Part shown: positions 4,569 through 24,511 of the stretch, one piece after another
How the letters are laid out: each line of letters begins with the position of its first letter
How positions within the stretch are numbered: position 1 is the stretch's first letter
From: a virus
Reading direction: 5' to 3' (one strand)
IMG/VR virus record: IMGVR_UViG_3300025634_000006
Span: 1 to 33,989 of that record
DNA length: 33,989 nucleotides
Position numbers and translations under genes: made by a program
Notes under the pieces: model-generated
What the model saw: only the letters and a program-made list of their open reading frames with translations
What the model was told of the DNA's origin: nothing
Database searches by the model: none

Positions 4569-4619
4569 CCAAACAAAAAAGCCCTGCTCCTTAACTGGAT
4601 GCAGGGCTTTTTTGTTTGG
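4569..4619. terminator. bidirectional intrinsic terminator between convergent units
   Basis: A perfect 19-bp inverted repeat (4569-4587 with 4601-4619) closes a 13-base loop. The GC core is GCCCTGC/GCAGGGC, and A6/T6 runs flank it on both sides, so either strand gives a hairpin followed by U-rich RNA. It can end the rightward lysis unit and the leftward unit. Its right end overlaps the CCA end of the tRNA by 3 bases. Confidence 0.93.
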
Positions 4620-4690
4620 AGCGAGGTAAGGGAATTGAACCCTTGTCTTTAGTTTGGAAAACTATGGCTCTACCATTGAGCTAACCCCGC
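4617..4690 (-). tRNA. tRNA-Gly(UCC), CCA encoded
   Basis: Read on the minus strand, the 74 bases fold as a cloverleaf. The acceptor stem GCGGGGT pairs with ACCTCGC (one G-U pair). The D arm is GCTC/GAGC. The anticodon loop TTTCCAA gives anticodon UCC. The T arm is AAGGG-TTCAATT-CCCTT, with discriminator T and an encoded CCA. The anticodon stem has an A-A mismatch at its first pair, so it has only four good pairs. It reads GGA/GGG glycine codons and may supplement the host pool. The last three bases lie inside the terminator stem, so the terminator hairpin may define the 3' end of the transcript. Confidence 0.93.
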
Positions 4691-9867: not shown

Positions 9868-10154
9868 GATCCATCTTCCACTTTCTTGAGGGTGGTGATA
9901 ACCTCCTCATGAGTTGTTGCTTCAGCATCATTCCATTTTGCAACGGTTTCGAAGCCTAATTTTACGACCTCATCACGCAACAGCTGTCCTTTTTCTTTGA
10001 ATTCTACTCCATCGTAGCATCTTCGAATTGCGCCACCAGCACAAAAGCAGACAGCCTCTGGATCATTCCACCAGCAAGACTTCCCATGCGCATCATAAGC
10101 ATAGCCGCCTTTGCGCCAGTTCTTCGGATCAGCAATCAGTTCATAGGCTTTCAT
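9864..10154 (-). CDS. DUF6197-like small protein
   Basis: The 96-residue protein has Cys-Phe-Cys-Ala-Gly-Gly-Ala-Ile-Arg-Arg-Cys at about 36-46. It ends with the Trp-Asn-Asp plus Ala-Thr-Thr-His-Glu-Glu-Val-Ile pattern that I recognise from DUF6197, a family of unknown function in phages and actinobacteria. The protein at 25989-26285 shows the same layout (Ala-Arg-Asp, a Gly-Ala-Leu block, then Asn-Tyr-Glu-Asp-Tyr), so the genome seems to carry two distant copies on opposite strands. Confidence 0.65.
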   Translation of the reverse strand: MKAYELIADPKNWRKGGYAYDAHGKSCWWNDPEAVCFCAGGAIRRCYDGVEFKEKGQLLRDEVVKLGFETVAKWNDAEATTHEEVITTLKKVEDGS

Positions 10155-10611
10155 TTTGTTTTCCTTCCAGATGGTTCTTGATCAATTCATAGCCTTTGCC
10201 GTCACGGTCGCGCCAAAACTCAAGACCATAGTGACCAGTCTTGATAGCGAATTGACTTGCAATTTTAGCAGTTAGGTGGATGCCGTAATAATGGAAGATG
10301 ACATCTTCCTTCCCACGCCAAGTCAGGTCGATAATTTTCTCCCCATCCCAACACCAACCATGCTCAACCGGAAAGCCCACAGCTTCCGCCATTGCGTAAC
10401 CTTGGCAATATTCCCAGTTGTTTTTCAGCGCAGTCAGCAGCGCATTGCCGAAGCAATTCCTTTCCTCCAGTTGCAGGTGGCCACCTGTTGAGATGCCCTT
10501 TGTTGTTTGAGACTTGCCGTGGCTCAGGACCAACCCTGTTATGCGTGGAAGCTTTGAAGCAAAGCCACCCTCATAGCCAAACAAGGTCTTGACAGTTTCT
10601 TCTAATGTCAT
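10141..10611 (-). CDS. probable Cys-His-Asp enzyme-fold phage protein
   Basis: The start is placed at the ATG on 10611 because GGAGAG lies just upstream; an ATG 12 codons earlier lacks such a site. The 156-residue product has Asn-Cys-Phe-Gly-Asn-Ala near residue 52, then Tyr-Cys-Gln-Gly-Tyr-Ala, then Val-Glu-His-Gly-Trp-Cys-Trp-Asp-Gly and Ile-Asp-Leu-Thr-Trp. The ordered Cys, His and Asp resemble a transglutaminase/papain-like triad seen in uncharacterised phage proteins. Substrate is unknown. A hairpin with the ribosome binding site in its loop (10614-10625) precedes the start, as in the leader elements elsewhere. Confidence 0.62.
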   Translation of the reverse strand: MTLEETVKTLFGYEGGFASKLPRITGLVLSHGKSQTTKGISTGGHLQLEERNCFGNALLTALKNNWEYCQGYAMAEAVGFPVEHGWCWDGEKIIDLTWRGKEDVIFHYYGIHLTAKIASQFAIKTGHYGLEFWRDRDGKGYELIKNHLEGKQNESL

Positions 10612-10612
10612 T

Positions 10613-10801
10613 TCACTCTCCAGTGTTCGATAAAGGTGATGAATCAAAATAACGAATACGAACGATTTTGCTAACGTGCGCAGCCTTTTCTTGCCATTTC
10701 ACAGCAGCACTTATTTCACCTCTGTCAAGAAGTTCTCTTGCTGTTTTATAATACCAAGCAGATGTTTTTGTTCGGTCTTTGAATTCGAGATCGATTTTCA
10801 T
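10613..10801 (-). CDS. small protein headed by a structured leader
   Basis: The 62-residue basic protein (helical, Lys/Arg/Ala-rich centre) begins at the ATG on 10801, directly after a complete leader element (10804-10880). Its last codons (Asn-Thr-Gly-Glu-stop) are the DNA of the SD hairpin that serves the next gene, so translation ending here would melt that hairpin. No family recognised. Confidence 0.58.
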   Translation of the reverse strand: MKIDLEFKDRTKTSAWYYKTARELLDRGEISAAVKWQEKAAHVSKIVRIRYFDSSPLSNTGE

Positions 10802-10803
10802 TT

Positions 10804-10880
10804 CACTCTCCAGTGTTTCTGATGGGCCTCATCAGCACCCGCTCTACGGATGGAAGGGAGATCAATCTCCCTTTTCGGCC
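10804..10880 (-). promoter_or_regulatory. four-hairpin leader element, copy 4 (before the 10613-10801 gene)
   Basis: Minus-strand RNA, 5' to 3'. After CCGAAA comes stem A AAGGGAGA-UUGA-UCUCCCUU (10854-10873), which contains the stop of the upstream gene. Then come a single C, stem B CAUCCG-UAGAG-CGGGUG (10836-10852), stem C CUGAUG-AGGCC-CAUCAG (10819-10835), GAAAC and stem D CACU-GGAG-AGUG (10804-10815). The ATG follows two bases later. Stems A, B and C differ in sequence from the other copies but keep pairing. Confidence 0.8.
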
Positions 10881-11107
10881 TCGACTTTAAATGCAGTCCA
10901 GCACTTCCACTTGGCTAGCCAGATTTCAAGCTTCACTGGCACCTCAGGCAACTTGCTTATGCCACGGTTGAGGCGGCTGATCTCAGTCTTGCATGCCCGC
11001 TCAGCCGCCTTAAAGTTGCCGTGGTTGGATATCAGCTTGGCGTTCCCATCACTGAACACAGCCATAGAAGCCCAAGGCCGTAACACCTCTTCGATTGGCT
11101 TTTTCAT
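10862..11107 (-). CDS. hypothetical 81-residue basic protein
   Basis: The ATG overlaps the preceding stop (ATGA). The product is helical, with Lys-Ala-Ala-Glu-Arg-Ala-Cys-Lys and three tryptophans in the C-terminal third (Ile-Trp-Leu-Ala-Lys-Trp-Lys-Cys-Trp). The TGA lies inside stem A of leader copy 4, so ribosomes ending here would affect that hairpin. No family recognised. Confidence 0.55.
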   Translation of the reverse strand: MKKPIEEVLRPWASMAVFSDGNAKLISNHGNFKAAERACKTEISRLNRGISKLPEVPVKLEIWLAKWKCWTAFKVEAEKGD

Positions 11108-11772
11108 TTCGATTTCTCTGCTTCTGCAAGTTTTTTCATGTCGGCCATTGAATCGGTGTTGCCATTAAAGAAACGACTTGGGTTAATCTGATAGCCGCTT
11201 TCACGGTAGATCAATTGTGCAGCCAATAGTGTATTGTGGTAGCGTTCCAGCGCATAGCCAGCTTCGCCCGCAAGATGAACAATCCACCCGCCTCGACAAT
11301 GCGTAGTATTGCAAGTGTGCCAATTTCCCATATCAAGTGCCTTTGGCTGGCTGACAGCCTCAAAGATTTTGGCGTGAATGTTTTCAATCTTTGGGATTGG
11401 TGGTTGCCCAATAATGCCCTCTGTTTCTTTTTCAGGGTCGCCGCATAGATTTTCTTTGATATAGAGGTGGGAGACATTTGAGCAGTCTGAGCAGTCTGAG
11501 CAGCCTGAGCAGTCTGAGCAGCGTGAGCAGTCTGAGCAGTCTGAGCAGCGTGAGCAGCGTGAGCAGCCTGAGCAGTCTGAGCAGTCTGAGCAGTCTGAGC
11601 AGCCTGAGCAGCCTGAGCAGCCTGAGCAGCCTGAGCAGGCTAAGCAGTCTGAGCAGTCTGAGCAGTTGTCACAATTCTTTAAGGTTGCTAACCTCGCTGC
11701 AGCCTCAGCTTCGCTACCCCAGCGTTCAACCGAAGCGCGGTTGCCGTTTTTACCTTCGATCCAAGTTGTCAT
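11104..11772 (-). CDS. Cys-repeat phage protein with His/Cys C-terminal domain
   Basis: The ATG at 11772 has AAGGAG six bases upstream; an earlier TTG would lie in the binding site. The 222-residue protein has a short N-terminal region (Trp-Ile-Glu-Gly-Lys-Asn-Gly and a helix). It then has 21 consecutive X-X-Cys triplets, mostly Ser-Asp-Cys or Ser-Gly-Cys (about residues 35-98), followed by a C-terminal domain. That domain carries Asn-Trp-His-Thr-Cys-Asn-Thr-Thr-His-Cys-Arg-Gly-Gly-Trp, a segment I recognise from phage proteins with such repeats. The triplets probably form a stacked beta-solenoid or bind metal; function unknown. Confidence 0.72.
   Translation of the reverse strand: MTTWIEGKNGNRASVERWGSEAEAAARLATLKNCDNCSDCSDCLACSGCSGCSGCSGCSDCSDCSDCSGCSRCSRCSDCSDCSRCSDCSGCSDCSDCSNVSHLYIKENLCGDPEKETEGIIGQPPIPKIENIHAKIFEAVSQPKALDMGNWHTCNTTHCRGGWIVHLAGEAGYALERYHNTLLAAQLIYRESGYQINPSRFFNGNTDSMADMKKLAEAEKSK
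11480..11665. repeat. 9-bp tandem repeat array coding the Cys triplets
   Basis: About 20 copies of a 9-base unit close to TGAGCAGYC run without interruption, varying mainly at the middle bases. On the coding (minus) strand each unit gives two X-X-Cys half-turns (Ser-X-Cys). A long plus-strand frame here (Leu-Ser-Ser repeats) is a by-product of the periodicity. There are no spacers, so it is not a CRISPR array. Confidence 0.92.
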
Positions 11773-11783
11773 CTTCTTCTCCT

Positions 11784-11915
11784 TCAATTCAATTCAGTTA
11801 CACAATAATCAACCGAGTGATTATTGCGGCAGATCGTCATCGCGTCGCTGTACATCTGACCAAGATAGAAAGTGCAGAGCACAGCGACGACAAGAGCAAT
11901 GGCAATGAGTTTCAT
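11784..11915 (-). CDS. 43-residue membrane or exported peptide
   Basis: The ATG (complement of 11913-11915) overlaps the previous stop as ATGA. The product has an N-terminal hydrophobic stretch (about residues 3-18, Leu-Ile-Ala-Ile-Ala-Leu-Val-Val-Ala-Val), then a short polar tail with two cysteines. Its TGA lies 9 bases before the Cys-repeat gene's ATG. It may be a membrane-anchored micropeptide or a small secreted protein. Supported by the overlap and by filling the gap exactly. Confidence 0.55.
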   Translation of the reverse strand: MKLIAIALVVAVLCTFYLGQMYSDAMTICRNNHSVDYCVTELN

Positions 11916-12187
11916 CCCAACACCTCTACGAATTTCCAATGGCTGTCTTTTCGGATCATTGCTGTCGGGTCTGACAATCTGTTCGCACCTTTCAATTTGA
12001 AGAGGCGCGGATCGTTGGTGCTCATTGGTCTTTCATACGCTGGATGGTCCAACTTTCCGTTCTTCAATGATGTACACTTCCACCCAATGTAATAAGGCTT
12101 TTCAAAATGCACGATTGCGATGACTTCATCCGGATATATTCCGGCATTTATTCCCTTGGTAGTTGGGTATGCGAGGCACTGTTTCAT
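11912..12187 (-). CDS. hypothetical 91-residue protein
   Basis: The start is placed at 12187 (TTGGAG six bases upstream, TAAGATG junction); a longer frame would overlap the upstream gene by about 60 bases. The product is basic, with an N-terminal Met-Lys-Gln-Cys-Leu-Ala-Tyr and a beta-rich middle (Val-Ile-Ala-Ile-Val-His-Phe). No family recognised. Confidence 0.55.
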   Translation of the reverse strand: MKQCLAYPTTKGINAGIYPDEVIAIVHFEKPYYIGWKCTSLKNGKLDHPAYERPMSTNDPRLFKLKGANRLSDPTAMIRKDSHWKFVEVLG

Positions 12188-12188
12188 C

Positions 12189-12515
12189 TTACGCTCCAAT
12201 CGCTTCATCAAGCTTTCCGATAACATCATCAACGTCGAACTCTTCCACATCTAATTGATCTAACATATCCTTGGCTTCTGAAAGAGCCTCAACTGCTGCC
12301 TCAGCAACTTTTGCCTTGTCGCCTTGTTGTAAGTTTTCAGGAAGATTTTCGATGTACTCTTGTTCTTCGTTCATGATTGTGTCGACATCACCAAACAATT
12401 CAGCAGCAAACTCACGGAAAGCCTCAACAGCTACCTTGGCTGCTTCATGAATTTTGCGAAGCTCTTCGCATTGAGGATAAAGAGCACGGATGGCCTTGCG
12501 GCGGTCGTTGTTCAT
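12189..12515 (-). CDS. acidic helical phage protein
   Basis: Begins at the ATG on 12515 with AAGGAG six bases upstream and a 4-base overlap with the preceding 50-residue ORF. The 108-residue protein is strongly acidic and almost entirely helical, ending in Asp-Val-Glu-Glu-Phe-Asp-Val-Asp-Asp-Val. Acidic helical phage proteins often inhibit or mimic nucleic-acid-binding host proteins, but nothing here shows that directly. Confidence 0.55.
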   Translation of the reverse strand: MNNDRRKAIRALYPQCEELRKIHEAAKVAVEAFREFAAELFGDVDTIMNEEQEYIENLPENLQQGDKAKVAEAAVEALSEAKDMLDQLDVEEFDVDDVIGKLDEAIGA

Positions 12516-12664
12516 AGTGCACTCCTTACTGCATAACCGATGACAGCAGCCACCCAATCCTTAGCGTGCTTATCGCCGCGCTCATAGTCGATGGCAATTT
12601 CAACTGCCTTGAAAGCTGAATGGCCATAAGCCTTCAGCAACTTGATTATTGTTTCGCGTTTCAT
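12512..12664 (-). CDS. 50-residue helical ORF
   Basis: ATG at 12664 follows GAAGGGG, one base after the stop of the upstream gene (TGAaATG). The 50-residue product has an amphipathic helix (Ile-Ile-Lys-Leu-Leu-Lys-Ala-Tyr) and Trp-Val-Ala-Ala-Val-Ile-Gly-Tyr-Ala near the end. It fills an otherwise unexplained gap, and both ends overlap or abut neighbours, which supports coding. Confidence 0.6.
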   Translation of the reverse strand: MKRETIIKLLKAYGHSAFKAVEIAIDYERGDKHAKDWVAAVIGYAVRSAL

Positions 12665-12665
12665 T

Positions 12666-12869
12666 TCAAAACCCCTTCGCTATTAGAGGCTGCGCCGATT
12701 GCTCAACGATGAAAGAAGCGTCGTGAAGGGCCTGAGCAAATTCAGGCTCGCCATTCTTAGCTTCCAGCTTCAATTCATAAGCTAGCTCAGCGATGATATG
12801 AGTAAACCCATAATCGGATATTGCTTGCTTTAAGCAACCTTGGTGTAGGTGGTTATCTAAAAGTGCCAT
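12666..12869 (-). CDS. small protein headed by a structured leader
   Basis: The 67-residue acidic/helical protein begins at the ATG on 12869, directly after leader copy 3 (12872-12950). It contains two His near the start and Asp-Tyr-Gly-Phe-Thr-His-Ile. No family recognised. Confidence 0.58.
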   Translation of the reverse strand: MALLDNHLHQGCLKQAISDYGFTHIIAELAYELKLEAKNGEPEFAQALHDASFIVEQSAQPLIAKGF

Positions 12870-12871
12870 TT

Positions 12872-12950
12872 CACTCTCCAGTGTTCATGTTTCCGATGAC
12901 CATCATCAGTAGCAGCCTAACTGCTAGACGGGCTTGAGCCCGTTTCGGTC
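12872..12950 (-). promoter_or_regulatory. four-hairpin leader element, copy 3 (before the 12666-12869 gene)
   Basis: Minus-strand RNA, 5' to 3'. Immediately after the upstream TAA comes GACCGAA. Then stem A ACGGGC-UCAA-GCCCGU (12928-12943), a single C, stem B UAGCAG-UUAGG-CUGCUA (12910-12926), stem C CUGAUGA-UGG-UCAUCGG (12893-12909), GAAAC plus a linker, and stem D CACU-GGAG-AGUG (12872-12883). The ATG follows two bases later. The element fills the whole gap between stop and start. Confidence 0.85.
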
Positions 12951-13709
12951 TTATGCGTATTCAACTTTCAGTCCATTGTCATTGAGCAACTTGCAAATCC
13001 GCTCCATCTCTTCTTGGGTTGCAGTGATGTGCATCTTTCCGCTCAGCACGAAGGGCTTGTCAGCATTGTGGCTTGCTTGGATGCGATTTTCATTGCGGCC
13101 GTAAACCGCCAACTCAGGGTTCGCTTTCTTCCAGCTTTCAACGATGACATAATTCGTCTGGTAAGCGTTGTTGCGCTTTTCTTCAGCTTCAGACTTCACG
13201 ATTTTCTCAATCAACATACGAGCCATATCAGCAAAGCGATAGCCACCGTTCTTGCGATCTTGAAAGCGGGTTGTTCCAATCTCAAGATCAATCCCAATGC
13301 ATGGGCCAGTGCGCCACTTTGAGCCCGAGCTTGCGAAACGTTCGCGGTGATAGATGCTAGCAATATTGCCGTTGATTTTCAAAATCGTGGCTGATCTGAA
13401 TGAGTAGGTGTTCTCAATCAACTTTGTTTCAACTTCACAAGTGAAATCTTTTTTGTAGTTTGTCTTTGCTTGGTGAGTGATCTCAACAGCCAGATTTTTA
13501 TAAATGTTCGTCCACTTGTTGCCTAATGCTTCAGCCTTCACCTTGGTGGCTTCCTTCTCAGCTAACCACTTTGCCTTTTGGGCAGCGTCCTTAGCTTCAG
13601 CAGCATCCTTTTCCTGTTTGGCCAGCAGTTCGGCCTTTTGCGTTTCAAGAGCCTTGATTTGCTCATCGATGGCTGTTGGGGTTGCCACAGCTTCAATTTG
13701 ATTTGTCAT
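12951..13709 (-). CDS. coiled-coil protein headed by a structured leader
   Basis: The ATG at 13709 is used because an earlier ATG lies inside the SD hairpin of leader copy 2. The 252-residue protein has a long N-terminal coiled-coil (about residues 10-70, Lys/Glu/Ala heptads). A mixed alpha/beta domain (about 75-200) contains Ser-Phe-Arg-Ser-Ala-Thr-Ile-Leu-Lys-Ile and Trp-Arg-Thr-Gly-Pro-Cys-Ile-Gly-Ile. A C-terminal strand-helix part ends in Val-Glu-Tyr-Ala. It is the largest product of the leader-bearing region. No named family recognised. Confidence 0.65.
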   Translation of the reverse strand: MTNQIEAVATPTAIDEQIKALETQKAELLAKQEKDAAEAKDAAQKAKWLAEKEATKVKAEALGNKWTNIYKNLAVEITHQAKTNYKKDFTCEVETKLIENTYSFRSATILKINGNIASIYHRERFASSGSKWRTGPCIGIDLEIGTTRFQDRKNGGYRFADMARMLIEKIVKSEAEEKRNNAYQTNYVIVESWKKANPELAVYGRNENRIQASHNADKPFVLSGKMHITATQEEMERICKLLNDNGLKVEYA

Positions 13710-13712
13710 TTT

Positions 13713-13789
13713 CACCATCCAGTGTTTGAGTTTCTGATCTCGTCAGTCACCGCCTTACGGTGAGACGGGCCTGAGCCCGTTTCGATCTT
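13713..13789 (-). promoter_or_regulatory. four-hairpin leader element, copy 2 (before the 12951-13709 gene)
   Basis: Minus-strand RNA after the upstream TGA. AAGAUCGAA is followed by stem A ACGGGC-UCAG-GCCCGU (13765-13780), one C, stem B UCACCG-UAAGG-CGGUGA (13747-13763), stem C CUGA-CGAGA-UCAG (13734-13746), GAAAC and linker, then the D region CACUGGAUGGUG (13713-13724). Here D is less perfect (CAC/GUG) and the ribosome binding site is weaker, GGAU. The ATG follows three bases later. It fills the gap exactly. Confidence 0.85.
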
Positions 13790-14023
13790 TCAGACCAAAC
13801 CTTTTATCGCTGCCTCCAAGGTTGATTCTTGGCGAATGACGAGAGGAAGATCAAGTTCATTTTTCTGCTCAACGTCAGTCACAAACCATTGAACAGCTTC
13901 AAAGCGCGTATGCATTGGCCAGACTTTGTAGCGATTAAACTCACCGAAGGTTTTGGGCTGAGCAGCGCGACTTCCTGCAGCCAAAGGGTCGTTGGTGATG
14001 GTCTTTGGGAAAGTTAGCTTCAT
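13790..14023 (-). CDS. first gene of the leftward unit, headed by a structured leader
   Basis: The 77-residue protein starts at the ATG on 14023, three bases after leader copy 1. It has a basic N-terminal half (Pro-Lys-Thr, Arg-Tyr-Lys-Val-Trp), then Thr-Arg-Phe-Glu-Ala-Val-Gln-Trp-Phe-Val and an acidic stretch. As the promoter-proximal gene of the leftward unit it may act early in infection. No family recognised. Confidence 0.6.
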   Translation of the reverse strand: MKLTFPKTITNDPLAAGSRAAQPKTFGEFNRYKVWPMHTRFEAVQWFVTDVEQKNELDLPLVIRQESTLEAAIKGLV

Positions 14024-14026
14024 CTT

Positions 14027-14114
14027 CGCTCTCCAGCGTTAAAGTTTCTGATCATCGTCAGTTGCGGCCTCACCGCAAGACAGCGCAAGCAAAAGCTCAC
14101 GCAGTTTCGATCTT
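14027..14114 (-). promoter_or_regulatory. four-hairpin leader element, copy 1 (head of the leftward unit)
   Basis: Minus-strand RNA: AAGAUCGAA, then stem A (14080-14105) with core GCGUGAGC-UUUU-GCUUGCGC and an A-U/C-G extension across a U-U mismatch. Then one C, stem B UUGCGG-UGAGG-CCGCAA (14062-14078), stem C CUGA-CGAUGA-UCAG (14048-14061), GAAAC and linker, and stem D CGCU-GGAG-AGCG (14027-14038). Compared with copies 3 and 4, D has a compensatory change (A-U to G-C) that keeps the pair. The ATG follows after three bases. Confidence 0.85.
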
Positions 14115-14157
14115 GTTTTATTTTCACTCCCGGAAACCAGAGGCAGCGTGGGCGTTT

Positions 14158-14267
14158 GGAACCGCTTCACACTTAGGGGCTTCATCCGGCCTAGGTTCTT
14201 CTGCTTTCGCTCCTAGGCCTGCCCCACTCCCTACCGGAGAGGAGGTTCCTTATGCTTGGGGGAACCC
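14158..14267 (-). ncRNA. foldable GC-rich segment, possible structured 5' RNA of the leftward unit
   Basis: Nested complementarity: GGGGC (14176-14180) with GCCCC (14221-14225), and inside it GGCCTAGG (14188-14195) with CCTAGGCC (14212-14219). Read on the minus strand, the inner loop holds GC-GAAA-GC (14203-14210), a GNRA-type tetraloop, favouring a leftward transcript. GGTTCC (14244-14249) can pair with GGAACC at either 14261-14266 or 14158-14163, so two exclusive folds exist. It lies upstream of leader copy 1. Function and RNA class are unknown; a DNA site (origin or operator) is an alternative. Confidence 0.45.
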
Positions 14268-14506
14268 GACCCGCTTAATCAATAAACATGTTATGCGCCA
14301 TTTTTCAGGAAAAGAAAAGGTCTTTTATCACTTTCCACAAAATAATTTTACCCACAATTCATTGAGAAAACGGACATAAATGGCTCGCGGTTTTGACGAA
14401 AATCAGGAACTTTCGCTTTTCGCCACCCTTCCGCCTTGTTTTCAGGGCATAAAGAAAAGGTTGCAAAAACGGCATCATGCCTAAGCCAACTTGAAAGGAA
14501 GTAACT
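14268..14506. other. rest of the divergent control region, no gene seen
   Basis: About 240 AT-richer bases between the leftward unit and the rightward unit. Promoters for both directions should lie here, but I see no convincing -35/-10 pair. TTGACG near 14391 lacks a good -10 at 17 bases. A minus-strand TAACAT near 14290 has only a poor -35. Just before the rightward gene, GGCAT-C-ATGCC (near 14470-14480) can form a small hairpin, and AAGGAAG precedes ATG 14507. Confidence 0.5.
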
Positions 14507-21127: not shown

Positions 21128-21424
21128 ATGGCACAAAGAACATTTGAGAATTACACTCCTGTTCAAAGATTAGTTGCTGCAGCAAGAGTAGAGTTGACCG
21201 ACCTCGCGTATGATCAAACTGAGGCAGGTTGCTTACTTGCGCGTTGGGCCAACGGTAAGCTTTGCGGCATAAATAATGCAAGCCCAAATGATCGCTATAT
21301 CAATATCTGCTCTTCCACCGACACAGAAGCTGACGCTGACTTAGGCCATTGGATCGTCAGGGACAATGGTAAATTTTACGTTTTGACTGATGAAGAGTTC
21401 AATTCTTGTTGGAGCCGAGTGTGA
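21128..21424 (+). CDS. hypothetical 98-residue protein before the polymerase
   Basis: AAGGAG at 21115-21120 places the start at ATG 21128; GTG 21125 is possible. The product contains Ala-Gly-Cys-Leu-Leu-Ala-Arg-Trp-Ala and His-Trp-Ile-Val-Arg-Asp. It overlaps the polymerase start (GTGA). No family recognised. Its separate ribosome binding site after a 25-base gap is unusual here. Confidence 0.55.
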   Translation: MAQRTFENYTPVQRLVAAARVELTDLAYDQTEAGCLLARWANGKLCGINNASPNDRYINICSSTDTEADADLGHWIVRDNGKFYVLTDEEFNSCWSRV

Positions 21425-22497
21425 CAATTCGTAACCGAACAGCATTTTCCTTCCGCAATGCCATTGGCAACCTGAATGCCAATCATAAGAAGGTGACAGA
21501 AATAACAGGCGGCTTCTCAGTCATCACCGACACTGCTAGCACCTTCGCCCATACGCGTTGGACAAAGCTTTGCAAGAAGGCAGGGAGCAAGCCCATCTTC
21601 GGGATTGAATTGGCTGTGACCAAGTCAGTGAATGAGAAGAAGCCTGGCTTTGATTATTGGACGTTCATCGCGCAGGACAGCCTCCGCCCACTTCATGAGT
21701 TGTTGTTGCTGGCCACGAATCAATTCCGCTACGTGCCTCTTTTGACGATGGAACAAGCCATAAGGGCTGAAGGCGTATTCAAGATAGCAGGCTCAAAGTC
21801 TGACTATTCAGAACTTCCCCAAGACATCTTTGTTGCACTTTCACCTTCAATGAACCGCGCCCAATATAAAAAGGCCAGCGAGCTCAACCGCAACTTCGTC
21901 TTGGCAAGTGACAATCGTTACATTGAACCGGAAGACAGAGAGCTTTTTCAAATTCAGCTTGGACGCGATGCTTCTGTTCAGACTTATCCGCAGCACTTGA
22001 TGACCAATGCTGAGTTGATCAAAGACCTTCAACACCGTGGTGTTGGTGATGAGAATATCACCCAGAGCCTAAGCAATCGTGAATTCATATTTGCGAATTC
22101 CAACGCTCACCAGTTGGCTAGCACCTTGCTAGTTCCTGAGAAGCCACAAACCCTTGAAGCGATGTGCATTGAAGGAGCGGCGAGGTTGGGGTGCAACTTG
22201 AATGATCCGGTTTACAAGGCGAGGCTCTATAGAGAGCTTGACCTAATCGCGCTGAAGGAATTTGAGGACTACTTCTACATCATCGCTGACATCTGCCAAT
22301 GGGCAAGGCAACGCATGATCGTTGGCCCTGCACGTGGTTCTTCTTGCGGCTCTCTCGTTTGCTACCTGCTTGAGATCACTACCGTTGACCCAATTCCATA
22401 TGGATTGATCTTTGAACGCTTCATCGACGTTAACAGAGGTGGATGGTTTTTGAATCCAAAAATAGAGAAATTATTAGAGGGACAAAATGGGGCTTAA
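21421..22497 (+). CDS. dnaE: DNA polymerase III alpha, N-terminal half (PHP region and first part of palm)
   Basis: The GTG at 21421 overlaps the upstream stop (GGAG seven bases before). The 358-residue product aligns by eye with the start of DnaE polymerases. Ile-Thr-Asp-Thr-Ala-Ser-Thr-Phe-Ala-His matches the PHP region but lacks the usual His after Asp, so the PHP site is probably inactive. Later come Ala-Ser-Asp-Asn-Arg-Tyr, and Gly-Pro-Ala-Arg-Gly-Ser-Ser-Cys-Gly-Ser and Phe-Glu-Arg-Phe-Ile-Asp-Val-Asn-Arg-Gly-Gly, the palm segment just before the catalytic site. The last 17 residues match nothing in the family. The catalytic aspartates are on the next gene, so this half alone cannot polymerise. 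Confidence 0.88.
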   Translation: MTIRNRTAFSFRNAIGNLNANHKKVTEITGGFSVITDTASTFAHTRWTKLCKKAGSKPIFGIELAVTKSVNEKKPGFDYWTFIAQDSLRPLHELLLLATNQFRYVPLLTMEQAIRAEGVFKIAGSKSDYSELPQDIFVALSPSMNRAQYKKASELNRNFVLASDNRYIEPEDRELFQIQLGRDASVQTYPQHLMTNAELIKDLQHRGVGDENITQSLSNREFIFANSNAHQLASTLLVPEKPQTLEAMCIEGAARLGCNLNDPVYKARLYRELDLIALKEFEDYFYIIADICQWARQRMIVGPARGSSCGSLVCYLLEITTVDPIPYGLIFERFIDVNRGGWFLNPKIEKLLEGQNGA

Positions 22498-24511
22498 TTT
22501 TATTCCAGAGCGCATGGCGAAATACTCTGCCAAAGAGCTTCGAGATATCAATCACTCAATAACAGCTTCTGTCGTATTGCAGAAATATCTTTCTGGCCCT
22601 AAGCCGCAGAGCACAATCGGCTTGGCAGCAGAATACCTGCTTGGGTGGAGTGAAGAATTTGTTCCATTCAACAATGAACTTTACTATGATCAAACGCTCC
22701 CTGATGTGGACATAGATTTCTCCGACACAAAGCGTTATATGGTCTTTGATTATATGGCCGAGAAGTATGGCAAAGATCACGTTGCAAGACTTGGAACAGT
22801 TTCGTTGCTCCGTCCGAAGTCAGTTTTGCAAAACACTGCTGCTGCGTTGGATATACCGCGCTGGAAGATCGACAAAGTGACCGACGCGATCATTGATCGC
22901 TCAGGTGGTGACTCACGTGCGTTGCAAGCCACTGAGGACACCCTGAAGGAAACTCAAGTAGGCAAAGAGTTGATCAACGAATATCCAGAAATATTAATCG
23001 GCGTACGGATGGAAGGCGAGCCTAAAAATTACAGTCAGCACGCTGCCGGAATGATCATCACCGAGCGACCTATTATTGATTATGTCGGCATTGATGCGCG
23101 CACTGGCGCAACACAATGTGACAAGAAGGATGCAGAAGATCTTGGGTTATTGAAAATCGATGCCTTGGGACTAACTCAACTTTCAGTGTTTGAGGACTGC
23201 CTGCAGATGGCTGGGCTTCCGATGAACCATCTAAATTCAATTCCGTTGGATGATCCATTGGCATTTGAGGTTTTGAACAAGGGGTCATACTCTGGAGTTT
23301 TTCAATTCAATGGGTTGGCGTTGCAAAGCATCACAGATCAAGTTGAAATTGCTGAATTGAATGACATCGTCTCCATCACTGCTCTTGCGCGTCCTGGTCC
23401 ATTGAACACAGGCGGCACAAATCAATGGATAAAAGTCAAGACTGGAAGAGAGCAAGAAAGTTATCCGCATCCAATATTTGAACCTTATTTGAAAAGCTCT
23501 CTTGGTGTGGTCGCATTTCAAGAACAGATTATGATCATTGGCCGCGAAATTGGAGAACTTTCCTGGGGAGATGTTTCGGCATTACGTAAAGCAATGAGCA
23601 AGAGCCTCGGGGTAGAGTTTTTCAATCAATATGGCGACAAATGGAAGAAGGGCGCTTTGGAAAAAGGCATCCCTCAAGATGTCACTGATAAGGTGTGGAC
23701 AGATTTGTGTGCGTACGGCGCGTGGTGTTTTAATTTGTCGCATGCTGTTGCTTATGGGTTGGTAAGCTATTACTGCTGCTGGCTGAAGGCGCATTATCCG
23801 GTTGAGTTCGCTGCAGCAACCCTCAGCCATACCGAAACACCCGAAGCCCAAATCTCAATGCTGCGCGAGATGCACCGTGAAGGCATCAGCTACGTGCCAG
23901 TTGATGCTGAGGTGTCAACCAACAATTGGGCCGTAGGATACCGTGACAATAGCAAGTTGCTGGTTGGGCCGCTGAGCTCTGTGAAGGGCATTGGCCCGAA
24001 GCTCGTATCGCAAATCCTTTCATCACGTGCGCGCGGTGAGCCACTAGCGGGCCGCGCCGCAAAGTTGTTGGCCAATCCTGAGACTGACATTGATGACTTG
24101 TGGCCAATTGGCACCCGCTTCAAAAACCTGATGCCTAATCCAGCTGATAGGAACATCCACAGCCCACCCACTGACGTCAAGAAGTGTCAAGTGAATGGCC
24201 AATATCAAGACGTGATGGTGCTCTGCACTCTCAGCCAGATCAAGCCGAAGGACGAGAATGAATTGATCAACATTCAGAAGCGTGGCTATGAATTCAAAGG
24301 CCCAAGCCAAGCCCTAAACTTGCGTCTGACAGATGACACTGACACCATCTTCGCCAAGATCGATCGGCATGACTATGAAGTGCTTGGGCAACCGATTGTT
24401 GAGCGTGGGCGTCCGGGCAAGGCACTCTACGCAATCAAGGGCACAATACCGAAGGACTTCCGAATGATCAACGTCAAGTTCGTTCGCTACATTGGGGACA
24501 TGGAGGAATAG
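22487..24511 (+). CDS. dnaE: DNA polymerase III alpha, C-terminal half (catalytic)
   Basis: The ATG at 22487 has AGAGGG upstream and overlaps the N-half by 11 bases in another frame, so it is a separate protein of 674 residues. The first 70 residues do not match DnaE. From 71, Leu-Pro-Asp-Val-Asp-Ile-Asp-Phe carries the catalytic Asp73 and Asp75, and Lys-Ile-Asp-Ala-Leu-Gly carries Asp225. Ala-Leu-Arg-Lys-Ala-Met-Ser-Lys-Ser and Leu-Ser-His-Ala-Val-Ala-Tyr-Gly are the finger motifs, and Val-Lys-Gly-Ile-Gly-Pro is a helix-hairpin-helix. A C-terminal OB/tau-binding region appears shortened. It should form the active enzyme with the N-half. Confidence 0.9.
   Translation: MGLNFIPERMAKYSAKELRDINHSITASVVLQKYLSGPKPQSTIGLAAEYLLGWSEEFVPFNNELYYDQTLPDVDIDFSDTKRYMVFDYMAEKYGKDHVARLGTVSLLRPKSVLQNTAAALDIPRWKIDKVTDAIIDRSGGDSRALQATEDTLKETQVGKELINEYPEILIGVRMEGEPKNYSQHAAGMIITERPIIDYVGIDARTGATQCDKKDAEDLGLLKIDALGLTQLSVFEDCLQMAGLPMNHLNSIPLDDPLAFEVLNKGSYSGVFQFNGLALQSITDQVEIAELNDIVSITALARPGPLNTGGTNQWIKVKTGREQESYPHPIFEPYLKSSLGVVAFQEQIMIIGREIGELSWGDVSALRKAMSKSLGVEFFNQYGDKWKKGALEKGIPQDVTDKVWTDLCAYGAWCFNLSHAVAYGLVSYYCCWLKAHYPVEFAAATLSHTETPEAQISMLREMHREGISYVPVDAEVSTNNWAVGYRDNSKLLVGPLSSVKGIGPKLVSQILSSRARGEPLAGRAAKLLANPETDIDDLWPIGTRFKNLMPNPADRNIHSPPTDVKKCQVNGQYQDVMVLCTLSQIKPKDENELINIQKRGYEFKGPSQALNLRLTDDTDTIFAKIDRHDYEVLGQPIVERGRPGKALYAIKGTIPKDFRMINVKFVRYIGDMEE

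Follow-up and report, generated by a model that had tools for sequence, protein, structure and literature searches.

Four leader elements on the minus strand

The window analysed here is a virus record of 33,989 bases (IMG/VR record IMGVR_UViG_3300025634_000006, taken at its full length). On its minus strand lies a leftward operon in which four repeated leader elements, c1 to c4, stand before the genes 13790-14023, 12951-13709, 12666-12869 and 10613-10801. Each of these genes, as well as a fifth one, is also preceded by a small hairpin with the Shine-Dalgarno (SD) motif in its loop (Table 1). The elements have the core, the stems and the topology of type II hammerhead ribozymes. Judging from the sequence, we consider it probable (about 0.8) that they are four such ribozymes by which the leftward phage transcript would be cut in cis during its synthesis.

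The elements run in the order stem II (4 base pairs (bp), open), GAAA, stem III, NUH^, stem I (6 bp with a 5-nucleotide (nt) loop UNANG), CUGANGA, and again stem II, with ^ marking the predicted cut. Copy c2, for example, reads GATC-GAAA-CGGGC UCAG GCCCG-UC^UCACCG-UAAGG-CGGUGA-CUGACGA-GATC. The core letters C3 U4 G5 A6 N7 G8 A9, G12 A13 A14, A15.1-U16.1 and H17 are present in all four copies. Stem II is a long-range stem, paired as GATC/GATC, GACC/GGTC or GGCC/GGCC among the copies, and closes the core GAAA…NUH^…CUGANGA. Both the structural scan and the covariance model described below give the type II topology, in which loops close stems I and III and stem II is open. Set against a criterion of at least two same-strand hammerheads flanking phage genes, the window has four within 3.3 kilobases (kb), all on the minus strand.

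A sequence-only reading of the same DNA had noticed the four minus-strand elements in their correct place and described them as a leader of four hairpins in a row, stems A to D. The pairs that it quoted for stem B stand, as do the loops (UGAGG, UAAGG, UUAGG and UAGAG). As a functional fold the row of hairpins does not hold, since stems A and B correspond to stems III and I, respectively, of a hammerhead whose long-range stem II had been overlooked. The motif, which had not been recognised as a named RNA class, does have a name, and because the named class is self-cutting neither the binding protein nor the RNase suggested for it is required; RNA processing, another of the suggested uses, is likely.

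Table 1. Ribozymes, hairpins and genes of the leftward operon (positions in the window; aa, amino acids)
Feature	Position	Strand	Details
Hammerhead c1	14050-14112	minus	precedes gene 13790-14023; predicted cut 14079/14078, GUC^UUGCGG; covariance model 41.6 bits, E 1e-10
Hammerhead c2	13736-13787	minus	precedes gene 12951-13709; predicted cut 13764/13763; covariance model 69.6 bits, E 1.6e-19
Hammerhead c3	12898-12950	minus	precedes gene 12666-12869; predicted cut 12927/12926; covariance model 60.6 bits, E 1e-16
Hammerhead c4	10825-10880	minus	precedes gene 10613-10801; predicted cut 10853/10852, UUC^; covariance model 50.6 bits, E 1.4e-13
Competing hairpin, c1	14048-14061	minus	CUGA with UCAG; from sequence
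Competing hairpin, c2	13734-13746	minus	CUGA with UCAG; from sequence
Competing hairpin, c3	12893-12909	minus	CUGAUGA with UCAUCGG, 7 pairs; minimum-energy fold
Competing hairpin, c4	10819-10835	minus	CUGAUG with CAUCAG, 6 pairs; minimum-energy fold
SD hairpin, c1 gene	14027-14038	minus	CGCU-GGAG-AGCG; -3.8 kcal/mol; start codon 14023
SD hairpin, c2 gene	13713-13724	minus	CACU-GGAU-GGUG; -1.1 kcal/mol; start codon 13709
SD hairpin, c3 gene	12872-12883	minus	CACU-GGAG-AGUG; -2.3 kcal/mol; start codon 12869
SD hairpin, c4 gene	10804-10815	minus	CACU-GGAG-AGUG; -2.3 kcal/mol; start codon 10801
Lone SD hairpin, fifth gene	10614-10625	minus	CACU/AGUG; no ribozyme match here; start codon 10611
Gene after c1	13790-14023	minus	77 aa, no family match
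Gene after c2	12951-13709	minus	252 aa, no family match
Gene after c3	12666-12869	minus	67 aa, no family match
Gene after c4	10613-10801	minus	62 aa, no family match
Fifth gene	10141-10611	minus	156 aa, lone SD hairpin only

Relatives, covariation and Rfam coverage

The string CTGANGA-N3-12-GAAAC occurs six times in the window, where 0.34 occurrences are expected, and four of the six are these elements. Relatives were retrieved with two patterns. The first, with core letters, cleavage site and loop AGG fixed (part of that retrieval also demanded a GAAAC tail), returned 31 viral loci, mostly perfect hammerheads ahead of a start codon. The second placed no constraint on stem I or its loop and constrained a single strand of stem II, in part; it returned at least 120 viral loci and 74 genome loci. 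Among the matches of this stem-I-blind pattern that were listed, 138 of 139 distinct viral ones had all six stem I pairs (random expectation ~0.3%), and 137 had stem II paired in full (four pairs). Of 67 genome matches 50 were real and the other 17, which look like chance matches, served as an internal control; 17 genome-scan loci that failed the structural scan were excluded.

The structural scan gave 210 matches in 150 loci and none in shuffled sequence. On 44 relatives the covariation score was 0.82, as compared with 0.18 after shuffling and at most 0.13 with slid partners; these relatives were picked by a scan that requires pairing, and the stem-I-blind retrieval is therefore a stronger test of covariation than pair counts. 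A covariance model built from the 44 relatives, with the window copies left out, matched exactly four sites in the window (41.6-69.6 bits, E 1e-10 to 2e-19), the next-best match having 10 bits and E 0.86. The window thus holds exactly four ribozymes, and none ahead of the fifth gene. The type II class requires covariation in three stems among homologues, and stems I, II and III all covary once homologues are added, a comparison that the sequence-only reading had itself named as its refutation test. Its argument that covariation points to a selected RNA structure is thereby strongly supported.

Throughout the family stem I has 6 bp and a 5-nt loop, with U at loop position 1 in 248 of 249 sequences, A at position 3 in 199 and G at position 5 in 193. 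Stem II has 4 bp almost throughout in the structural scan, the search pattern being biased toward that length. A pseudoknot between loop I and the 3' tail was not found as a family feature: at least four pairs were present in 16 of 287 cases, about chance level, and mutual information between loop and tail showed no clear pairing.

At its cut-off, Rfam reported only a tRNA across the window and no hammerhead. Below the cut-off of 37 bits, the type II model RF02276 gave 27.6 bits for c2, 27.2 for c3 and 21.3 for c4, and did not list c1. The same cut-off reports 3 of 42 covariance-model matches in 17 loci and none of 50 in 16 further loci. Because just 3 of 92 relatives are reported overall, the low scores in the window show a gap in model coverage, not non-membership.

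Ribozymes cluster on one strand, with as many as 11 copies per phage. The largest array found, in a virus record of 67,627 bases (67.6 kb), has its eleven hammerheads within ~5 kb on one strand; a 43.5-kb record has 9 copies and this window has 4. Judged by record titles, genome matches came from Gastranaerophilales, Synergistales, Planctomycetes, Acidobacteria, Alphaproteobacteria and others. A 6.28-Mb contig of Singulisphaera sp. GP187 has seven model matches in 5.1 kb on one strand, unreported by Rfam, in what is possibly a prophage.

Placement, predicted cut sites and the core-tail hairpin

The ribozymes occupy a narrow position between stop and start codons. An open reading frame (ORF) starts at most 120 nt downstream in 194 of 195 viral cases, at a median of 23 nt past stem II. 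An ATG ORF of at least 50 aa lies within 60 nt of 173 of 195 ribozymes, compared with 1025 of 3928 random positions and 22 of 196 positions on the opposite strand. On the other side, counted from the stop codon of the ORF upstream (60 codons or longer), the first base of stem II falls at -1 to +4 nt in 132 of 190 cases, whereas 3.3% of random positions come within 4 nt; the last base of the stop codon is shared with stem II in 47 of those 132. The genes downstream of relatives are short (median 101 aa) and mostly of unknown family. ArdA and other antirestriction proteins recur among them, ArdA being matched in 3 of 120 downstream proteins.

The window copies are placed alike. From the end of stem II to the four start codons there are 26, 26, 28 and 23 nt. 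Upstream, c2 begins 2 nt and c3 0 nt after the stop codons of genes 13790-14023 and 12951-13709, respectively. The sequence-only reading had set each element before its gene; the four places are right, except that c4 overlaps the 3' end of the preceding gene, 10862-11107, whose stop codon (10864-10862) sits in the stem III loop. Copy c1 stands before the gene that opens the operon; a cut there would remove the operon leader.

Cleavage would divide the operon at 14078, 13763, 12926 and 10852, so that one long message would become separate gene messages without any enzyme. Cut positions and end chemistry are predicted from established hammerhead chemistry: the RNA on the upstream side would carry the stem III hairpin and a 2',3'-cyclic phosphate at its 3' end, and the one on the downstream side would have exactly the opening base of stem I as its 5' end, giving a 5'-OH and a flush hairpin. 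In bacterial mRNA decay RNase E prefers a 5'-monophosphate and single-stranded RNA, and hairpins block 3' exonucleases, which suggests that both new ends would be protected. The computations show the identity, fold, covariation, placement and number of the ribozymes; from these we infer that the window copies cleave, that messages are separated in vivo, that stability or translation is affected and that the RNA refolds after the cut.

Several observations weigh against this scheme. Copies c1 and c3 have an extra U between CUGANGA and stem II (at 14054 in c1, and after A9 at 12902 in c3) and c1 has one U.U mismatch in stem III, features that could slow cleavage. The same extra U is seen in otherwise perfect hammerheads of four other loci (L056, L117, L163 and L226). 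Copy c4 lies partly in translated sequence and could be blocked by ribosomes. Energy models, which ignore the tertiary contacts of hammerheads, favour non-hammerhead folds in all four copies, and in the folds of c3 and c4 the core strand is paired with its own tail. Finally, the fifth gene has the SD hairpin with no ribozyme, and cleavage is thus not required for the expression of every gene.

The core-tail pairing is the third hairpin (stem C) of the sequence-only reading, where it was one of the leader hairpins. It consists of the core CUGA(U) paired with the tail (A)UCAG, adjoining stem I; as it uses the catalytic core strand, it is excluded by the active ribozyme. At least four core-tail pairs occur in 69 of 258 distinct ribozymes, compared with 44 +/- 3.3 after swapping the tails and 22 +/- 4 after shuffling the tail letters. 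Tails begin with AG in 41 of 66 cases after a stem II ending in UC and in 18 of 183 after other stems (Fisher 4e-16, a p-value that treats related sequences as more independent than they are). The GAAAC-tail requirement in part of the first retrieval may bear on the enrichment, and the tail could instead have a tertiary role. When the 3' product is folded only as far as the vicinity of the start codon, stem C is part of the prediction for c1, c3 and c4; the fold predicted for c1 changes once more downstream bases are included.

We read stem C as a hairpin that would refold after cleavage, a brake before cleavage being less likely. Once released by the cut, the CUGANGA strand could base-pair with the UCAG tail in a hairpin stacked on stem I; such a hairpin would hinder re-ligation, shield the new 5' end and keep the SD motif exposed. 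More tentatively, the UCAG tail may have been selected to capture the CUGANGA strand, right after cleavage or just before it, in a one-way switch that we regard as possible rather than probable. In its post-cleavage form the cut would be locked and the new 5' end of the mRNA capped by two stacked hairpins; in its pre-cleavage form the switch would act as a kinetic timer, with a fixed share of the RNA left uncut.

The same hairpin could instead belong to a regulated switch, in which stem C, formed ahead of cleavage, keeps the ribozyme switched off unless folding kinetics, translation of the upstream gene, a ligand or a protein favours the hammerhead, with cleavage turning the downstream genes up or down. 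The enriched CUGA/UCAG complementarity, the link between AG tails and a stem II ending in UC, and the greater length of the hairpin in c3 and c4, where it is the minimum-energy fold, agree with such regulation. However, the hairpin is missing from most relatives, no candidate ligand or protein is known, and simple refolding after cleavage predicts the same hairpin. Moreover, the tail is transcribed last, when the ribozyme is already complete and fast cleavage would come first. We therefore consider regulation of this kind unlikely. A further possibility is that cleavage is followed by ligation, which would turn the stretches between ribozymes into circular or rearranged RNAs. In its favour, neighbouring copies flank short gene blocks (315, 837 and 2074 nt) with ends of the kind that a hammerhead could re-join. 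A search for spliced or circular products from arrays of this type found none (PMC3088659), and the refolding hairpin would oppose re-joining; of the explanations considered here this is the most improbable.

A non-catalytic leader, as first proposed, would act through hairpins that are recognised by a protein of the phage or the host or that adjust translation, its likeness to a hammerhead being irrelevant. This could explain why GGA is held in the loop of a 4-bp hairpin in all five copies of stem D, ahead of these five genes, and at none of the 14 other leftward genes. Yet stem D was not seen in the listed relatives, the invariant hammerhead core letters are kept in all four copies while stem letters vary, and stem II, a prediction peculiar to the hammerhead fold, forms in nearly all relatives among the matches listed; the proposal retains very little probability. 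The core insertions in c1 and c3 and the near-identical SD modules of c3, c4 and the lone copy would also be expected of ribozyme remnants or of selfish spread, that is, of duplicated, partly inactive copies with little function. Against this, the stems of the copies differ in sequence and are still paired, the extra U recurs in relatives with otherwise perfect folds, and the exact stop-to-start placement is preserved across unrelated phages, which makes decay or selfish spread improbable. Self-cleaving type II hammerheads thus remain our preferred reading of the four elements.

SD hairpin, neighbouring genes and known hammerheads

For stem D, the sequences given in the earlier reading, the lone copy and one compensatory change were all found; the hairpin is weak (-1.1 to -3.8 kcal/mol) and contains one wobble pair, in c2. 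At the lone copy the modelled local fold may prefer another pairing. The stem D sequence is identical at c3, at c4 and in the lone copy, as if one module had been duplicated. Two loci retrieved with a joint pattern of core and SD hairpin were rejected as relatives, being chance matches without a hammerhead. As this pattern gave only chance loci, the SD hairpin seems specific to this phage, in which it may tune translation.

Protein searches found no relative of the 252-aa protein among viral contigs or annotated phages, and none of a DUF932 protein among viral contigs. A look for promoter-like sites upstream of the operon gave nothing convincing. The leader upstream of c1 (14110-14280, minus strand) contains the nested inverted repeats GGAACC, GGGGC, GGCCUAGG / CCUAGGCC, GCCCC and GGUUCC; its folding energy is ordinary for its composition (z -0.6) and it has no Rfam match. 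A cut at c1 would free this leader as a separate RNA. Elsewhere in the window, 11104-11772 (minus strand) codes for a protein with a long Cys-Ser-x repeat (CSDCSDCSGCSG...), specified by a CTGCTCAGA-type tandem repeat and matching PHROG families of unknown function. A phage DNA polymerase extends over two overlapping plus-strand ORFs, 21406-22497 and 22487-24511, which match consecutive parts of phrog_405; the split could be a frameshift, an assembly error or natural. A tRNA-Gly (TCC) gene lies at 4617-4690 on the minus strand.

The literature already describes type II hammerheads, including tandem copies in prophages, together with the idea that they cut long phage transcripts (PMC3088659). 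Tandem prophage copies cleaved within native transcripts of ~2 kb, a set of three showed activity in E. coli (PMC3088659), and processing of long phage transcripts by hammerheads had been proposed (Perreault et al. 2011, PMC3088659). The window copies share with this class (PMC3088659; RF02276) the core CUGANGA / GAAA / NUH, three stems, the open stem II and the tandem prophage arrangement flanking genes. They differ in the fixed 6-bp stem I with its 5-nt UNANG loop and in scoring under the RF02276 cut-off. They also do not have the pseudoknot between loop I and the tail that is found in the majority of published examples (PMC3088659), a feature that is not defining.

A close counterpart is the hammerhead of Burkholderia phage Bcep176 (PMC7151607; NC_007497 12168-12237), which was found by our covariance model with 44.9 bits and whose sequence in Table 2 of PMC7151607 agrees with the Bcep176 DNA. 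Like the window copies it has a 6-bp stem I, a 5-nt loop (here UUAUG) and a 4-bp stem II, and it begins right behind a stop codon. In vitro this RNA cuts itself, a GAAA to GUUU mutant does not and a version with the consensus core cleaves better (PMC7151607). In contrast to the window copies, which retain A6, it has the core variant CUGCUGA (C6) that prefers Mn2+, and it is a single copy with the next annotated gene on the other strand. The HHphage hammerhead of haloviruses HF1/HF2 lies 13 nt before the start codon of an early gene, with a mapped 5' end near the cleavage site (PMC3088659); it differs in belonging to an archaeal virus, in a core insertion near C3 and in being a single copy. The ardA-associated hammerheads of Agrobacterium and Legionella likewise form a triple array around phage genes and are active in E. 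coli (PMC3088659), whereas no ArdA match was found among the ribozyme-led genes of this window.

Besides the window copies as new members of the class, this work adds the rule of stop-to-start placement, the blind spot of Rfam and the enrichment of the refolding hairpin. No prior description of the placement rule, the size of the Rfam gap or the core-tail hairpin was found in the open-access literature, a scope in which a subscription paper is possibly overlooked. The Rfam type II model misses almost the whole subfamily, and phage hammerheads are consequently under-annotated. The results bear on what bacterial and phage hammerheads do, since the stop-to-start position in many unrelated phages points to the segmentation of messages, an idea made testable by the exact predicted cut sites. 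If the one-way switch were true, a widespread phage subfamily, mostly missed by Rfam, would set mRNA ends and dosage gene by gene.

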